21,065 bases of DNA from a virus: IMG/VR virus record IMGVR_UViG_3300021964_000677, positions 1 to 21,065 of that record; one strand, 5' to 3'. The notes under the pieces are model-generated. The model was given only the letters and a program-made list of their open reading frames with translations. It did not search any database and was not told where the DNA came from. Below, in pieces: positions 7,693-20,600 of the stretch. The first letter of the stretch is position 1. Each line of letters opens with the position of its first letter. Both the position numbers and the translations under genes were made by a program.

Positions 7693-8458
7693 GCAACTTG
7701 AGCTTGACGAACTATCTTTGGTTGACCGTCCTGCAAATGCGTCTGCCAAAGTTGCACTTTTCAAGCGTGATTCCGAAGAGGAAAATATGGAAAAAGCATA
7801 TAAAATGAGCGATGCCGAAATGGAGGAAATGGACAAAGTGTCTGATGACCTCAAGGCTAAACTTCGTGGCTACATGGGAAAAGGTTATACCTTCCCAGAA
7901 GCCAAGAAAATGATGGATGACGACATGAAGAAAGCTGATGAGGATATTTCCTTGGAAGCTGAACTCATGGAACTCAAAGAGGAAAACGAGAACCTACGCA
8001 AACAGCTAGGTGAAGTCGTTGAGAAAAAAGAAGAGGTCGTAGAGACGATTGAGGTTAATGGAGAGGTGGTAGTAAAGGCTGACATTCCAGAGCCTGTCTT
8101 GAAAGCTCTTGAGGAAGCTAAGGTCGAAAAGCAGATGATCGAACTGCGTAAAAGAGCCGAAGCGGAATTACCACACTTTGACGTTGAAGTGGCTATGTCG
8201 TTGCTCAATGTTATCAAGGGTGATGCAAAAGTCCTAGAGGCACTTAAAGGCGCAGATGCTGCTTTTGCTGCTGCTATGGACGAAGTGGGAGAAAAATCTG
8301 TCGAGGCCGACATGACTGACCCACAATCTAAACTAGACAAGATGGTAGATGCCTATGCCGAAGAGCATAAGGTCAACAAATACGCTGCTTTTGATGCCAT
8401 CTCTAAAACAGCAGAGGGTAAATCCCTTATCGCTAAAACTTATGAAATTGGAGAATAA
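7679..8458 (+). CDS. Capsid scaffold protein with protease-type SLVDRPAN head
   Basis: A 259-residue, very charged protein, mostly helical. Residues 1-36 carry LDELSLVDRPANASAKVALF, a motif that normally ends XkdF/HK97-type proteases. The middle (about 85-160) is Glu/Lys-rich coiled coil (LKEENENLRKQLGEVVEKKE). The C-terminal part is a small Ala-rich helical domain that would bind the shell. Position between the protease and the decoration and capsid genes, size and composition all fit a scaffold that organises the procapsid and is then digested. It starts 14 bases before the protease stop, in the +1 frame, with its own ribosome binding site. A second in-frame ATG at 7787 with AGAGG five bases upstream would give a form lacking the SLVDRPAN head (MEKAYKMSDAEMEEMDK). 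Confidence 0.75.
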   Translation: MNLLKQLELDELSLVDRPANASAKVALFKRDSEEENMEKAYKMSDAEMEEMDKVSDDLKAKLRGYMGKGYTFPEAKKMMDDDMKKADEDISLEAELMELKEENENLRKQLGEVVEKKEEVVETIEVNGEVVVKADIPEPVLKALEEAKVEKQMIELRKRAEAELPHFDVEVAMSLLNVIKGDAKVLEALKGADAAFAAAMDEVGEKSVEADMTDPQSKLDKMVDAYAEEHKVNKYAAFDAISKTAEGKSLIAKTYEIGE

Positions 8459-9880: not shown

Positions 9881-10279
9881 ATGACCCGACCGCCTTTCCA
9901 ATATGATAAGCCAGTCTTCGTGCGTAATCCTAATGGATTGCTGATGAATGGTAAGCGTTATGCTAAAGGTGATCTCGTTCCTTGGAAGGAGCGGGGTCTC
10001 CCGAAGGCCAACATTGAACGTATGTACAATGAGCTTCACCTTCATCATAATGAAGAGCTAGAGGTTACACTAAAGCCTTCTGTCGGTGACGGTCTTACTG
10101 ATCTTGATGCAGAGCAACTTGAAATCCTTGTTAAGACAATCAACGAGAGGGTAAAGGCCAAGACCTCTAATGAAGCTGAATACGACAGAAAGAAATGTCG
10201 TGTATCTAAAATCAAAGATAAACAAATTGGCTTCATTCGCTCTTGGCGTGGAAGACATGGTGACTTAGAGGCAGATTAA
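9881..10279 (+). CDS. Head-completion region protein of unknown function
   Basis: A 132-residue, basic protein without a name I can support. The N-terminal half has PVFVRNPNGLLMNGKRYAKG followed by DLVPWKERGLPKANIERMYN, which looks like a small conserved phage domain. The second half is a helix (DLDAEQLEILVKTINERVKA) and a Lys/Arg-rich tail (RKKCRVSKIKDKQIGFIRSW). It starts 12 bases after the capsid stop and shares one base with the next start (TAATG). In other phages this slot often holds a protein for head closure or joining; the basic tail may contact DNA or other virion proteins (inference). Confidence 0.5.
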   Translation: MTRPPFQYDKPVFVRNPNGLLMNGKRYAKGDLVPWKERGLPKANIERMYNELHLHHNEELEVTLKPSVGDGLTDLDAEQLEILVKTINERVKAKTSNEAEYDRKKCRVSKIKDKQIGFIRSWRGRHGDLEAD

Positions 10280-11923: not shown

Positions 11924-12901
11924 ATGGCTTTCGCACAAGGCTCTCGTTCTAGTCTGTCGTTCAAAGAAGAAACGACTTTTGGTACGACACCAGCAGGTAA
12001 CTTTCAGAACCTGCCTTTCACCTCTCATTCACTCAACCTTACGAAAGATCGTGTAGCTGGTACAGACATCCAAGCTGACCGTATGCCTCGCGTTGACCGT
12101 CATGGTAACAAGGTCGTGGGTGGGGATATTGTAGCAGACCTACGTCACGCTGAATTTGACGTTCTTATGCAGTCTGCCCTTATGTCAGATAATGACTTCG
12201 CTACAGGCTTTACTGCTGGAGATGGGTCTACAACCGTAACTAACGCAGCTATCGTGGGTACTACACCTACTTTCTTGTCAATTGAGGATTACTCAGCAGA
12301 CATAGACCAAGCACGTTTATTCACAGGTTGTGCAGTAAACACAATGGCAGTCTCTATGGCCCCTAACCAGATGGTAACAGCTACTTTTGGTATGGTTGGT
12401 AAGACGATGACCATTGGTGCTACACAGAAGACACAAGATGCCTCTGCTGGTAACGAGCCATTTGATTCTTACTCAGGTGACATTAAACTTGGCAACAAGG
12501 GTACACTTGGTTCAGCGTTGACGCTTATCACCGCTCTTGATTTTACTGTTACAAACAACTTTGCGCCAACTCTGGTTATTGGTGAAGATACACCATCATC
12601 CCTTGAGTTTGGTACGGTATCTGTTGAAGGTACGGTTTCAGCATATTTTGAAGATGCAACATTGCTCAACCGCTTCTTAAACGAGACAGAATCGGCGCTT
12701 GAGGTTTCTGTGGGGGAAGGGTCAAACACGCTGACATTTCTGTTCCCACGCATCAAGGTAAACTCTGCTGACGTAGGGGTAGATGGTCCAACATCACGTA
12801 TTATCAACATGTCTTTTGTTGGTCTACGTACTGATGAGGATCTTAGCTCTTCAACAACGAATGCAAATACCATTCTTCAAATTACGAAGTCTGGTGCATA
12901 A
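11924..12901 (+). CDS. Major tail tube protein
   Basis: A 325-residue protein that would polymerise to form the tail tube. It resembles the Phage_tube_2 type: QGSRSSLSFKEETTFGTTPA at the start, then RVAGTDIQADRMPRVDRHGN and a GGDIVADLRHAEFDVLMQ segment, a beta core, and a C-terminal RIINMSFVGLRTDEDLSSST. Length fits the larger tube proteins of this type. Codon use looks close to the capsid gene, with many C-ending codons, in keeping with high copy number (by eye). The preceding GGAGA (about 11914-11918) is a good ribosome binding site. It is followed by the only structured non-coding gap in the window, at 12902-12983. Confidence 0.85.
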   Translation: MAFAQGSRSSLSFKEETTFGTTPAGNFQNLPFTSHSLNLTKDRVAGTDIQADRMPRVDRHGNKVVGGDIVADLRHAEFDVLMQSALMSDNDFATGFTAGDGSTTVTNAAIVGTTPTFLSIEDYSADIDQARLFTGCAVNTMAVSMAPNQMVTATFGMVGKTMTIGATQKTQDASAGNEPFDSYSGDIKLGNKGTLGSALTLITALDFTVTNNFAPTLVIGEDTPSSLEFGTVSVEGTVSAYFEDATLLNRFLNETESALEVSVGEGSNTLTFLFPRIKVNSADVGVDGPTSRIINMSFVGLRTDEDLSSSTTNANTILQITKSGA

Positions 12902-12983
12902 GAATCCTAGCTAGGATGAGGGGGGTGGTTGTCGGGTGCTGCTCCCCTCGCTTTAAAACCCGACTAGCCCGAAAGGAAACCCA
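12902..12983. promoter_or_regulatory. Structured leader between tube and chaperone genes (hairpin plus possible H-type pseudoknot)
   Basis: This 82-base gap holds three complementary pairs. ATCCTAGCTAGGAT at 12904-12917 is a perfect 14-base palindrome. Directly after it, 12918-12926 (GAGGGGGGT) can pair with 12941-12949 (GCTCCCCTC), nine pairs including two G-U. The loop of that stem holds GTCGGGT (12931-12937), which is fully complementary to ACCCGAC (12958-12964), giving an H-type pseudoknot layout. The chaperone's ribosome binding site (AAAGGAA, about 12973-12979) lies just downstream. Only a short TTT follows the first stem, so it is a poor intrinsic terminator. A role in mRNA processing, stability, or reducing chaperone expression relative to the tube is inferred. 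Confidence 0.5.
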
Positions 12984-13382
12984 ATGGACTTGAAAGACCT
13001 GACACCGACAAGTGACACTGTGGATGTGAACATTGTGCATCCTACGACACTAGAACCATTACTGAATGATAATTCAGACCCAATGGTAATTACTATGTAT
13101 GCTCCACATTCTAAGGAGTATAAGGCTGCAATACATGAACAGACAAACAAGCGTCTAAAACAAGCGCAGTCAAAGAAGAAGGTAGATTTAACTGCTGAAG
13201 ATATAGAAGACGCCACTCTTGATTTATTTGCCAAGACAACAAAATCTTGGAATATCACATACGATGGTAAAGAACCAGATTTCTCTGTGAGTAAAGCAAA
13301 AGAGATTTATAGCGAAGTCTTCTGGATTAGAGACCAGATTGACGAAGCGGTGAGTAACTCTTTAAATTTCAAGAAGGCTTGA
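12984..13382 (+). CDS. Tail assembly chaperone G (gpG-like)
   Basis: A 132-residue soluble, charged protein between the tube and tape-measure genes, the fixed position of gpG-like chaperones in siphoviruses. It holds the helical region KEYKAAIHEQTNKRLKQAQS and, later, AKEIYSEVFWIRDQIDEAVS. Chaperones of this type keep the tape measure soluble and recruit tube subunits. A canonical in-frame slippery heptamer, T TTA AAT, lies at 13361-13367, four codons before the stop, so part of the ribosomes should go on into the T frame. The name gpG is by role and position; sequence similarity to lambda gpG is not claimed. Confidence 0.8.
   Translation: MDLKDLTPTSDTVDVNIVHPTTLEPLLNDNSDPMVITMYAPHSKEYKAAIHEQTNKRLKQAQSKKKVDLTAEDIEDATLDLFAKTTKSWNITYDGKEPDFSVSKAKEIYSEVFWIRDQIDEAVSNSLNFKKA
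13361..13367 (+). promoter_or_regulatory. Programmed -1 ribosomal frameshift site (TTTAAAT)
   Basis: The heptamer fits X XXY YYZ in the correct phase: zero-frame codons are TTA (13362-13364) and AAT (13365-13367). After slipping back one base the next codon is TTT at 13367, and the -1 frame has no stop until 13718. A small hairpin TCAAG-AAGG-CTTGA (13369-13382) begins one base later and includes the zero-frame TGA; it is closer to the slip site than usual stimulators, so its role is uncertain. Confidence 0.85.
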
Positions 13383-13720
13383 TTGAAGAGCTTCTCGACT
13401 TTGCAGAACATGAGTTCTCCATCAGTAAGCCCGACAAAAGCGGGATATCAGAACGTGAACACTTAGAACAAGTAGAAAGGCAGACTGGACGTAGACCAAA
13501 GGGATTGGATGGACCTGATTTTCCCACTTTGTTGTCTCACATCTGGTCTGCCTTTGTTGCATTAAGCAGTGGCAGAACTATGGGCTTCTCTGGCCCTAAC
13601 CCGATTACCTACGATCAAATAAAAGCATGGAAGGAACTTACGAATACACCCTTGTCTTCTTGGGAAGTAGAGGCAATAAAACGTGTGGACGTAATTTACA
13701 TGGGTAGTTTTAATGGCTGA
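13367..13720 (+). CDS. T part of the frameshifted GT tail chaperone (GT fusion 12984-13720, 245 residues)
   Basis: This frame has no good start of its own. The only candidate is TTG 13379, which overlaps the G stop and lacks a clear ribosome binding site. It is best read as the C-terminal extension of G made by -1 slippage at 13361-13367: 128 residues from G, then FQEGLIEELLDFAEHEF and on to GSFNG, 117 residues, 245 in total. T domains of GT proteins bind the tube protein while the G part binds the tape measure (known from lambda). It contains FPTLLSHIWSAFVALSSGRT and ends with a helix (WEVEAIKRVDVIYMG). Its end overlaps the tape measure start by eight bases. Confidence 0.8.
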   Translation, partial: FQEGLIEELLDFAEHEFSISKPDKSGISEREHLEQVERQTGRRPKGLDGPDFPTLLSHIWSAFVALSSGRTMGFSGPNPITYDQIKAWKELTNTPLSSWEVEAIKRVDVIYMGSFNG

Positions 13721-15995
13721 TCTTGCAGATATTCGCATAGGTATTGATGTTGAAACAGGGGATGTCGCTAGGGCTGTACAAATGTTTGAGTCCTTCAAGC
13801 GCAAAACTGCCCAATTAAAGTTGGAATTAAATAAGGGTAATATAACTCAAAAAGCATATAATCGCTCTATTCAGCAAATGGGAGCGCAGCTTGGTAAAGT
13901 AACAGGCAATACCAATCAAGCTAAAAGCGCCATGATGAAGTATAGGCTTGCGATAGAAAATGCAACTGATCAACAACTTAAGTTTACTACAGCTTCTGGT
14001 AAAGGTATGCGTAGGATGGAGATCCTCGCACAACAAGCTGGTTATCAAATCGGTGACTTGGCTGTACAAATTCAGTCTGGTACTAACGCTGCTGTTGCTC
14101 TAGGTCAACAAGGCTCACAGTTGCTAGGCTTTTTTGGTCCTACAGGAGCTATTGCTGGTGCTGTTTTAGCTATCGGTACTGGTTTAATTGCTCCGTTCCT
14201 AAAAGCTAAAGATGCAATTAAGGACACTACAAAAGAAATTGAATCTTTACGGTTACAAATCGACCTAATTAAGTTTGGTTTCAAAGATGAAAAGTCCTTT
14301 CAACTTACTATAGACATAGAAACAGCAAGGAAAAATATAGACGAGTTTAAAGCCAACATTTCAAAATTAAAGTTGGTCCCAAGCGATACTTCCGCTGTTC
14401 AAGTGGTGGAGTATTTAAAAGCCATAAAATATCAAGAGGGTCTTATAAAATCCGCTATGGATGAGCTTAAAGTAAGAGCTAATCTTACGACAGAGTATAT
14501 GATCCAAGAAGATAAACTCAAAAGACTTGAATCTTCACATAACGATTTAACCTCTGCTGCTAACGCTTACTCTAAGGCTAACGAGGAAATTTCAGAAGAA
14601 AGGGCTAAAGAACTTGACCTACTATCAAAAATAGCTAATACAAACCCTAGAATAAAAAAAGAGCAAGATGCCTTAGTTTCTGCTGCTAAGGCTTACTCTT
14701 TAATTAATGGTCAAATACTACAAGAAAAAGTTAAAGAACTTGAGTTATTATCAAGGATAGCTAATACAAATCCTAAGATAAGAAAAGAGCAAGATGCCTT
14801 AGTTTCTGCTGCTAAGGCTTACTCTTTAATTAATGGTCAAATATTATTAGAGAAGGCTGAGGAGATTGAGTTATACGCGAGGCAATTTGCTAAACAAGAC
14901 ACAATAAATGAACTATTACATTATGAGGTAAAGTATGGTAAAGACAGCGCAGAATATAAAAAACTACAAAATAGTTTACAGGATGAGCAATTAAAAAAAG
15001 AAATTGAATTATTAAAACTAAGTGATACTCAGGAAAAGGCATTGGTGTCACTAGTAAATGAGCAACGAAAGCTACTTGATCAATTAGATGAAGAAGAAGA
15101 AAAAAGAAAAAGGATAGCTAACTTAATAATATCCCCCTCTCTTGCAGCTAAAGGGGCTGGTTATGCGGCTTTAAGTGATGAATTGGCATTAAGGCAAGCC
15201 ACAGGTTTGGGTGTAGTAGAGGACAAGACGGATAAAAAGACTAAAGCTAAAGAATCTATGGCTTCCATAATAAAAAGCATGGAAGAACAAGCTAATCTTC
15301 AAAGACAATTAGTAGGCTTATCTGATCAAGAAGCTGATTACTTACAGATACTATATAACCTAAAAGAACAAAATAAAACTGCCTCTGGAAAAATGACTGA
15401 GGCTCAACTTAAACAAGCAGCAAAAAGAATAGCCGCCATAAATGCAGAAACAGCCGCTTTAGAGGCGCAAGAACAGAGGCTACAAGGTATAGCTGATACT
15501 TTAGCAAACGAATTTGAAAATTCTTTCATGTCTATGATAGATGGGACAAAGAGCGTAGATGATGCCTTTAGGGATATGTCAAGGAACATAATTAGTTATC
15601 TCTACAGAGTCCTTGTGCTGCAGCAAATGATAAGAGGGTTTGGGACAATTCTTGGTGGATCAGGTAATCCAATTCTGTCTGCTATAGGTGGAGCTTTAAG
15701 TAACTATTCTATGGATGGTGGTGGTTACACAGGTAGTGGGCCTCGCTCTGGTGGATTAGATGGCAAGGGCGGCTTTATGGCTATGTTGCACCCTAATGAA
15801 ACTGTTATAGACCACACTAAGGGTCAGTCTGCAGGGGGTGTTACTGTCGTACAGAACATCAATATTTCCACTGGTGTACAACAAACAGTTCGTAATGAGA
15901 TAAGAACTTTGATGCCACAGATAGCAGAAAGTGCTAAGGCTGCTGTAGCTGACGCTAAACGTCGAGGGGGTTCATATGGAAGGAACTTTGCATAA
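13713..15995 (+). CDS. Tape measure protein
   Basis: A 760-residue, mostly helical protein that sets tail length and helps DNA entry. The N-terminal ~130 residues have coiled-coil character, with MRRMEILAQQAGYQIGDLAV and QIQSGTNAAVALGQQGSQLL, a pattern common in tape measures. One hydrophobic stretch (about residues 138-165: LLGFFGPTGAIAGAVLAIGT and on) could cross a membrane. A long Lys/Glu-rich helical region follows, with a 42-residue tandem repeat. The C-terminal part has SFMSMIDGTKSVDDAFRDMS and a Gly-rich GGGYTGSGPRSGGLDGKGGF segment before LHPNETVIDHTKGQSAGGVT, the usual tape-measure end. At about 1.5 angstrom per helical residue, a tail of roughly 110 nm is expected. It overlaps the T frame by eight bases. 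Confidence 0.9.
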   Translation: MADLADIRIGIDVETGDVARAVQMFESFKRKTAQLKLELNKGNITQKAYNRSIQQMGAQLGKVTGNTNQAKSAMMKYRLAIENATDQQLKFTTASGKGMRRMEILAQQAGYQIGDLAVQIQSGTNAAVALGQQGSQLLGFFGPTGAIAGAVLAIGTGLIAPFLKAKDAIKDTTKEIESLRLQIDLIKFGFKDEKSFQLTIDIETARKNIDEFKANISKLKLVPSDTSAVQVVEYLKAIKYQEGLIKSAMDELKVRANLTTEYMIQEDKLKRLESSHNDLTSAANAYSKANEEISEERAKELDLLSKIANTNPRIKKEQDALVSAAKAYSLINGQILQEKVKELELLSRIANTNPKIRKEQDALVSAAKAYSLINGQILLEKAEEIELYARQFAKQDTINELLHYEVKYGKDSAEYKKLQNSLQDEQLKKEIELLKLSDTQEKALVSLVNEQRKLLDQLDEEEEKRKRIANLIISPSLAAKGAGYAALSDELALRQATGLGVVEDKTDKKTKAKESMASIIKSMEEQANLQRQLVGLSDQEADYLQILYNLKEQNKTASGKMTEAQLKQAAKRIAAINAETAALEAQEQRLQGIADTLANEFENSFMSMIDGTKSVDDAFRDMSRNIISYLYRVLVLQQMIRGFGTILGGSGNPILSAIGGALSNYSMDGGGYTGSGPRSGGLDGKGGFMAMLHPNETVIDHTKGQSAGGVTVVQNINISTGVQQTVRNEIRTLMPQIAESAKAAVADAKRRGGSYGRNFA
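14541..14918 (+). repeat. 126-bp (42-residue) tandem repeat in the tape measure, three copies
   Basis: Residues 277-318, 319-360 and 361-402 align as three tandem copies (NDLTSAANAYSKANEEISEE, DALVSAAKAYSLINGQILQE, DALVSAAKAYSLINGQILLE). Copies 2 and 3 share an exact DNA stretch of about 57 bp (14661-14717 and 14787-14843), so that step is recent; copy 1 has diverged. The third copy loses similarity at its end. The period is a whole number of codons, so tail length can change without breaking the gene. Confidence 0.85.
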
Positions 15996-17623: not shown

Positions 17624-20600
17624 AATATAAGCTAGGCGACATAACGGTTAAATACTGGAATGACTGGGATCGTGTTCCGCGTGATCCGTTTATTCTTTTC
17701 GGCGGGAACATCCTTGCGGCACCTACCATTGCACAGGTATTTATTGCTAAAGTTATTGGCTATATTGCAGTTTCGCTTGTTACTTCTTGGGCGCTTTCGG
17801 CATTAGCGCCTAAAGATAAGGGAGAATACGGATTACTTGCTAATGCTCGCGATGCGATTGCACCACAGCAAATTGTATATGGTGAAGTGCGAAAAGGTGG
17901 AATTATAACATACATCGAAAGCACAGGTAATAAAAACAAATATTTGCACCAAATCATTGTACTTGCTGGGCATGAGGTCAATAGCATTGGTGACATTTAC
18001 ATTAATGATGAGGTAGTTACACTCAATAGTTCTCAAGACCCCGATCTTGATGGTGTTGTAACTGATGCCAAATGGGGCAGCAAAATACTGATAAAAAAGT
18101 TTACTGGCGCAGACAATCAAAATGTTTACAACACATTAAGTGCAATCTCTAACGGACCAGAGTGGCAGGTCGATGGGTCAGCCCCTAGTAACAGTGAAGA
18201 TTCTAACTTTAAAGGCGAAGGGATAGCCTGTTTATATGTTCGTATGCAGTATGATAAAAATGTATTTGCAGAGGGCATCCCCTCGTTTACAGCAAAGGTG
18301 CAAGGTAAAAAAGTTTATGATCCTCGCACGTCTACAACAGGGTATTCTGCAAATGCCGCATTGTGCATTCGTGATTATCTTGTATCGTCTTATGGCTTAG
18401 ATAATACTGGAGATACTAACGATACTGTATTCCAAGTAGCGGCAAATACGTGTGATGAAACCGTAACTCTTGCATCTTCTGGAACAGAAAAACGCTATGA
18501 AATGAATGGCGTAATTTCTCTTAATAGAACTCCATCTAATATTCTAGCAGACATGATGACGTCTTGTGCTGGCACATTGTTCTGGGGGCAAGGTAAATGG
18601 CATTTGAAGGTTGGGGATTATACTTCCCCTGTAAAAACATTTACTTTAGATGACCTGCGTAGCTCAATTAATATAGACACAAAGCATAGTCGGCGTGACA
18701 ATTTTAATATTGTGCGAGGCACGTTTAACGATGCAAGTCAAGACTTTATTACTGCTGACTATCCAGAAATCAGATCATCAACATTTATATCAAATGATAA
18801 TGGTGTTGAAAATGAATTAGACTTAGAACTGCCGTTTACTACATCATCAGCAATGGCACAACGATTAGCCAAAATGACGTTGTTTCGTGCGCGAGAAGAA
18901 ATGACTGTTGTTGCTGATTTTGGTTTGTCTGCATTTGAAGTAGAATGTGGAGATATTATTGCACTTACTATTGATCGTTATGGCTGGTCAGCTAAGGAAT
19001 TTGAAGTTGTCGGCTGGAAGTTTAAAAATGACGGTGATGCTGGAGATTTGCGAGTTACATTAAACCTGCGTGAAACCTCATCATCAGCATTTAGTTGGTC
19101 GGCAGAAGAGCAAGAAATAACTAGCAATGATAGCACATTGCCGACCGCATCTGAAAGCATAACACCATCCTCTATTAGTGTAACTGATACTGGCGTAGTG
19201 CAAACTGATGGTACATTTGTTGCACAAATAAAAGTAGCTTGGACGGCTGGCCTAAATGAATTTATTGAAAGCCATGAAGTTCAGTGGAAGTTAGCTGGTG
19301 CATCTGATTATGCGGCGACAGAAATTGAGGCTGACGAAAACAGTATTATTCTAGGGCCAGTGGAGTCTGGGAAACAGTATAATATTCGGGTTAGAAGTAG
19401 GTTATCGTCTGGCAGAATAAGTTCTTGGGTTTCCGCATCACCGCACACAGTAGGTGGAGACACAATTGCTCCATCGCCAGCTACAGGATTAAGTGCAACT
19501 GGTGGTGTTCAAAGCGTTACTTTAGATTGGACTGCACCTACTACGCAAGTTGGTGGCGGGACTTTATATGATTTAAAAGGCTATTACGTTTACCGAAACA
19601 CTAGCAATAGCCAACCAGCATTACCAATTGCTTTTGTTTCTGCTGACAAATATGTCGATGGTGGATTATCAAACAATACGACATATTATTATTGGGTTGA
19701 GTCTGTTGACTTCTCAGGAAATCCAAGCACGTCAGTTGCCAGCGATTCGGTTACAACAAATCCAGAGTTGGTTAATGGTACTAATGGTACTAATGGGACA
19801 AATGGAGCAGACGGAGCAGACGGAGCAGACGGAGCAGACGGAGCAGACGGAGCAGACGGAGCAACTGGTGATACTGTAGTTACTGGAAAAGTTTACTATC
19901 AAACTTTGCAAGCCTTATCACCTACCACGCCAAGCGCAACAAGCTATAGCGTTTCAAGTGCGTCTTTTACTGGACTTAGCTCTGGATGGTCATTAACTCA
20001 GCCAGCGGTAGATATAACTGACACAAGCGTTTATGAGTGGTCATCTGACTTTACTGTAACTATTGATGGTAGCACATCTGCGCAAACTCTTGTGTTTACA
20101 AGCCCAGCGAGTGCAATACAAGTTACTACTGACTTACAGTCTGACAATTATGTTGCTGGAACTTCTGGCTGGTCTATTGAGCGCGACACTGGCAATGCTG
20201 AATTTCAGAATGCTACTATTCGCGGCACATTGAATGCTAATGATATTGAAGCTGGTACGCTTAGTGTAGATAGATTAGCGGGATTGAGTAGCATTGCGAC
20301 ATCATCTGTCTTATACACTTATTCATCAAGTACACTAACAACTGGTGATACTGCAACACTTACACTTTCTAATATAAGGTCGGGGTCTAAAATTCTTGCA
20401 GGTTTCTCAGGGCAATGTGAAGCAACAAGTGCTACTGACACTAATGAATTTATCTATGTGCCAAAGTTGACTGTCGGCGCTACAACTATTGACTTGGGTG
20501 TTGCTCGCGATAAATTTTACGCAAACCCTGTAACGGGAATTGTAGGAACTACATCCACCACCACCAGTATAGCAGTTACTTTGGCACATACTTCAAGCAG

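Follow-up and report, generated by a model that had tools for sequence, protein, structure and literature searches.

The RNA between the tail tube and tail assembly chaperone genes of a family of marine phages almost certainly folds, judging from comparison of relatives, into a hairpin followed by an H-type pseudoknot with a 12-bp first stem (S1), a one-base loop (L1), a 7-bp second stem (S2) and an A/U-rich crossing loop (L3). The pseudoknot loop has further complements at the start of the chaperone gene. We tentatively propose that the element is a cis-acting RNA switch which would control translation of the chaperone.

Results

The element in its operon

The window, the whole stretch of DNA analysed here, is a 21-kb viral contig (21,065 nt) carrying a siphophage structural operon, in which the ORF list and PHROG matches identify capsid, tail terminator, tail tube, chaperone, tape measure and tip genes. 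The features of the tube-chaperone junction are as follows.

11924..12901, + strand: tail tube (major tail protein) gene, the upstream cistron (PHROG phrog_290, E 8.5e-61; ORF list)
12902-12983: gap between tube and chaperone genes, 82 nt
12904..12917, + strand: hairpin 1, ATCCU-AGCU-AGGAU, 2 nt past the tube stop codon; palindrome ATCCTAGCTAGGAT
12918..12929, + strand: 5' arm of S1, a 12-bp stem, partner 12938-12949
12930..12930, + strand: L1, a single unpaired U
12931..12937, + strand: loop and 5' strand of S2, GUCGGGU (GTCGGGT in DNA), exact complement of 12958-12964
12938..12949, + strand: 3' arm of S1
12950..12957, + strand: L3, A/U-rich crossing loop, 8 nt in the window and mostly 7-14 nt in relatives
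12958..12964, + strand: 3' strand of S2, ACCCGAC, the proximal loop partner; duplex -11.2 kcal/mol, 19 nt to the ATG
12967..12972, + strand: second anti-loop copy, GCCCGA, adjoining the Shine-Dalgarno sequence; six pairs with UCGGGU, -9.3 kcal/mol
12973..12977, + strand: Shine-Dalgarno AAGGA of the chaperone gene, from sequence
12979..12985, + strand: degenerate anti-loop copy at the start codon (ACCCAAU), overlapping the AUG; -5.7 kcal/mol
12984..13382, + strand: tail assembly chaperone gene, the putative regulated cistron (PHROG phrog_313, E 9.5e-08)

An earlier, sequence-only reading of this stretch had reported the palindrome, the match between loop and downstream strand and the 19-nt distance to the ATG, all with exact coordinates. 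The nine-pair stem that it described (12918-12926 with 12941-12949) is present but is part of the longer S1, so that L1 shrinks to one base. Its perfect palindrome also exists and is better described as an RNA hairpin, which in relatives carries a GUAA or UUCG loop on a stem that still pairs. To call this the only structured gap of the operon is fair by the ORF list, in which neighbouring genes overlap or are spaced by no more than some tens of bases; structure itself was assessed at this gap only.

The same reading had placed a frameshift site about 400 bases further on, and the slippery heptamer U_UUA_AAU (T_TTA_AAT in DNA) indeed lies in the chaperone frame at 13361-13367, with a -1 shift leading into an ORF that ends at 13720. 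Tail chaperones usually have this G/GT arrangement. A role of the pseudoknot as frameshift stimulator was rejected, as the element sits past the tube stop codon and the UUUAAAU site is some 400 nt downstream. Two repeats were noted elsewhere in the operon: the tape measure gene holds about two copies of a 126-nt (42-codon) tandem repeat (14596-14874), and exact 9-nt repeats at 19804-19863 encode a collagen-like Gly-Ala-Asp array in a J-like tip protein.

Collection and distribution of the element

Chaperone protein searches, which do not presuppose the RNA, yielded 80 loci each and a DNA pattern search at least 120 stretches. Reading the gaps of 442 loci gave 204 distinct regions, and from these came 196 distinct elements, which represent 421 loci. 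Eight gap regions were left out: five belong to distant phages that have no such element, one contains a gene start in duplicate, and two have suffered partial loss. Divergent representatives, differing at five or more positions, number 43, and the counting tool was run on 42 of these. In the gaps of L310 and L295 the 5' arm of S1 and the loop are gone and the start-codon repeats are kept, which may reflect recombination or contig chimeras.

The element occurs in a family of marine phages represented by hundreds of environmental contigs and one isolate, roseophage CRP-6; this only isolate found has a Rhodobacteraceae host, FZCC0042. In every case examined it lies at the junction of tube and chaperone genes, with one copy per phage. 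The window, CRP-6 and 10 of 12 larger contigs each have a single copy, weak second matches scoring below 17 bits. Two contigs, L087 (173 kb) and L111 (73 kb), were discarded as carriers since their pattern matches are due to chance. For bacterial genomes the chaperone search gave no instance of the element, and the 33 matches of a pattern search of genome_contigs are close to chance expectation, none reaching 20 bits with the model. Chaperones encoded behind very similar elements can be just ~40% identical to that of the window, which implies that the element is more strongly conserved than the protein or has moved between phages by recombination.

Compensating changes support both stems

The folding energy of the gap is ordinary (minimum free energy z -0.72, matched by 45 of 200 shuffles), so claims about structure must rest on comparison. 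The minimum free energy fold recovers the 12-bp S1 and hairpin 1. An RNAalifold model built from a MAFFT alignment puts part of S1 wrongly, and pairs were therefore counted in a hand-registered, ungapped, spliced alignment. Hand registration favours S1 by construction, a bias that is bounded by block shuffles and by a control in which the partners were slid against each other.

Across the 43 representatives, 506 of 516 S1 cells are paired, compared with a mean of 348 and a maximum of 380 when the 3' arms were shuffled as blocks among sequences (1000 trials). Two-sided compensating changes occur at all 12 pairs of S1 (42 sequences). The stem is perfect at 12 bp in 182 of the 196 elements, and 178 combine an L1 of 1 nt with an L2 of 0. 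When S1 and S2 are taken together (42 representatives), 97.9% of cells are paired, as against 77.0 +/- 1.0% after shuffling and 45-53% with partners slid; the covariation score is 0.652 (42 representatives) versus 0.219 for shuffled sequences.

The loop hexamer GUCGGG is invariant (196/196) and only its seventh base varies (U in 181, G in 9, C in 6). S2 is paired in 97.6% of cells (42 representatives). Its pair 7 switches from U-A to G-C by two-sided change in seven sequences, and four other pairs vary one-sidedly, in the 3' strand only (G-C/G-U or U-A/U-G). The near-invariance of the loop makes compensation weaker in S2 than in S1. Hairpin 1 keeps its pairing in relatives while its stem differs and its loop varies (AGCU, ACGU, GUAA, UUCG, UACG, GCGU). 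The 8 nt 3' of S1, summed over the 196 elements, comprise 655 T, 560 A, 318 C and 35 G. Relatives thus retain the stems with compensation, the opposite of what would have spoken against the H-type pseudoknot that the sequence-only reading had suggested, and comparison strongly supports that fold.

Loop complements mark the chaperone start

A site matching the loop complement at six or more of seven positions and ending within 12 nt of the AUG is present in 194 of the 196 distinct elements. Counting all loop-complementary copies downstream of S1, of which the last lies at the chaperone AUG, 35 elements have two, 112 three, 45 four and two five. The best start-site copy ends directly before the AUG in 130 elements and 1 nt before it in 39, and overlaps it by 2 nt in 25. 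Near-AUG sites at this threshold (at least 6/7, G-U allowed) also arise in 37% of shuffled tails, so the weight lies on exact position and gene specificity and not on mere presence. By the strict pattern NYYYGA, such a site stands at 119 of 133 distinct chaperone starts; ten other genes of these loci have it at 9 of 553 starts, the tube gene at none (0/111). The earlier suggestion that the element controls ribosome entry thereby gains specific support.

The start copy takes forms such as ACUCGAC, ACCUGAC, ACCCGAU and UCCCGAC in relatives, and its positions 3 and 4, each facing a loop G, are C or U only, with no purine in 388 cells. Covariation of this pairing is small (93.2% of cells paired versus 91.7% shuffled) because the loop hardly varies, and support for it comes from position, specificity and the C/U-only variation. 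Elements with G at loop base 7 have C as the first base of the start copy in 6 of 9 cases, those with U in 8 of 181 (Fisher p 4e-6, without correction for descent). This correlation comes largely from one clade and may represent one event; the loop-G relatives L290, L291 and L298 retain A, not C, in the start copy.

By duplex folding, S2 pairing is stronger than start pairing in 31 of the 43 representatives and equal in nine. The start-copy duplex averages -8.9 kcal/mol in these representatives, against -5.7 in the window.

The window holds only one other ACCCGAC, about as many as chance would give; it lies at 9884-9890, directly 3' of the ATG in the gene that follows capsid. In CRP-6 (L476; 28487-28543 on the minus strand and 8014-8093) a terminator-like hairpin stands after the capsid gene with ACCCCGACG before the next ATG, and the start of gp18 carries GCCGAAAGGAAAACTCGATATG, which closely resembles the chaperone start region. 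The motif at capsid and gp18 in CRP-6 may reflect chance or a wider use.

Discussion

The proposed switch would work through a choice of partners. With the loop paired to the proximal copy, as S2, the Shine-Dalgarno sequence and AUG would be free and the chaperone made; with the loop paired instead to a copy at the Shine-Dalgarno sequence or the AUG, initiation would be blocked. The resting state would be 'on', because transcription yields the S2 3' strand before the other partners and its pairing with the loop is usually the stronger. Some factor acting against S2, whether an RNA-binding protein of phage or host or occupancy by ribosomes, would then turn the chaperone down, keeping it low and adjustable beside the abundant tube protein. 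A near-invariant loop on a stem free to change is what would be expected where one loop must match several partners. A role in setting the ratio of tube to chaperone, as the sequence-only reading had it, fits the place of the element.

A bolder form of the proposal, which we regard as doubtful, is that one pseudoknot loop picks among several near-identical strands towards the start codon, the copy chosen setting the rate of chaperone initiation. Such a device would constitute a new class of phage translational switch, and it might possibly sense the free pool of tube or chaperone protein, thereby tuning tail assembly in real time.

The main rival explains the same repeats by protein binding. 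The T4 gene 32 operator is bound by gp32, and its repeats are UUAAA/UAAA (PMC535899). In T4 and RB69, as here, an H-type pseudoknot in phage mRNA lies 5' of the ribosome-binding site and is followed by a stretch of repeats that includes the Shine-Dalgarno sequence (PMC535899); the repeats here differ in complementing the pseudoknot loop, and the downstream gene encodes a tail chaperone. By analogy one of the phage's own proteins, the chaperone and tube proteins being conceivable candidates, could bind the pseudoknot and then the CCYGAY repeats, covering the Shine-Dalgarno sequence and AUG; the repeats would be protein sites, and their match to the loop would follow only from the use of one repeat as the S2 strand. 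The layout is alike, a pseudoknot 5' of the ribosome-binding site and then a less structured stretch of repeats across that site (PMC535899), although the repeat sequences differ. Sequence recognition is also suggested by a loop and repeat that are near-invariant while S1 varies freely, and in the clade with C at loop base 7 (GUCGGGC) most repeats keep an A facing that C. Since no candidate RNA-binding protein was found and the C/U-only variation facing loop G is more simply explained by pairing with G, we judge this operator unlikely.

Other readings assign the structure to RNA decay, to transcription or to DNA. Hairpin 1 and the pseudoknot could stop 3' exonucleases after cleavage in A/U-rich sequence, protecting the tube message and leaving less of the chaperone message. 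The element usually lies a few nucleotides after the tube stop and offers a GC-rich 12-bp S1, stable tetraloops on hairpin 1 and an A/U-rich L3. Moreover the only isolate has a host in the Rhodobacteraceae, the family in which the intercistronic hairpin of the Rhodobacter puf operon sets segmental stability (cited in PMC8625941). The puf structure likewise lies between differently expressed cistrons of an operon, but its hairpin region acts on RNA stability and, in the account consulted, comes without a described pseudoknot or start-codon complement (PMC8625941). Distant phages also place strong hairpins at the same junction. A plain hairpin would suffice for such protection, however, and neither the precise geometry and invariance of the loop nor its complements, fixed at the chaperone AUG and rare at other genes, would be explained, so that a stability mechanism in place of the switch seems rather improbable; a stability role alongside it is possible. 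Read-through blocking, another suggestion of the sequence-only reading, would make S1 a partial terminator that cuts transcription into the chaperone gene. S1 is GC-rich, and phages of Acinetobacter, Rhizobium and Limnohabitans have terminator-like hairpins with T runs at this junction, yet TTTT follows S1 within 9 nt in just 40 of the 196 distinct elements and is absent in 156. In the window S1 is followed by GCTTTAAA. The T run directly behind a GC-rich hairpin that defines an intrinsic terminator is lacking in most elements, and terminators need no conserved loop, S2 or start-codon repeats; this idea is weakened to the point of being very improbable. Almost nothing speaks for a DNA feature (a palindromic protein-binding site or cruciform) or a conserved peptide beyond the perfect palindrome of the window. 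Both are already contradicted, by the many conserved G-U pairs within S1, by hairpin loops that turn non-palindromic (GUAA, UUCG, UACG) over a retained stem and, for coding, by gap lengths spread over all three frames, which also tell against an extension of the tube protein by frameshift or read-through.

The switch, as the reading we favour, has further parallels. Translation of repZ in IncI-alpha plasmids requires formation of a pseudoknot that an antisense RNA blocks (summarised in PMC8383071). In the repZ leader a pseudoknot 5' of the ribosome-binding site decides downstream translation (PMC8383071), as proposed for the present element; what sets the phage element apart is its several alternative partner strands. 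Phages of Acinetobacter, Rhizobium, sewage and Limnohabitans (L275-L280) carry terminator-like hairpins at the tube-chaperone junction in place of the element. These share the strong hairpin and the gene junction but are mostly a hairpin with a T run, and they have neither the 8-nt loop nor S2 nor loop-complementary repeats. Pseudomonas phage Ab18 has no gap at all, its tube gene overlapping the next gene. Taken with the hairpins of distant phages, this suggests that different phages may serve a shared need at this junction by different devices.

We file the element with phage or plasmid pseudoknots that control a downstream start. As a conserved RNA structure it is well supported, and it is absent from Rfam: at the gathering score no family of Rfam 15 matches the window or 12 divergent loci, and a relaxed threshold gave matches at chance level only. 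A search of the open-licence literature likewise returned no description of a pseudoknot at the tube-chaperone junction. CRP-6 is a cultured phage that carries the element and can be used for testing. Siphophages need tube protein in bulk and chaperone sparingly, and the known device for this ratio is frameshifting inside the chaperone gene. If the pseudoknot and its start-codon complements act as proposed, that message would contain a second ratio device, 400 bases upstream of the first.
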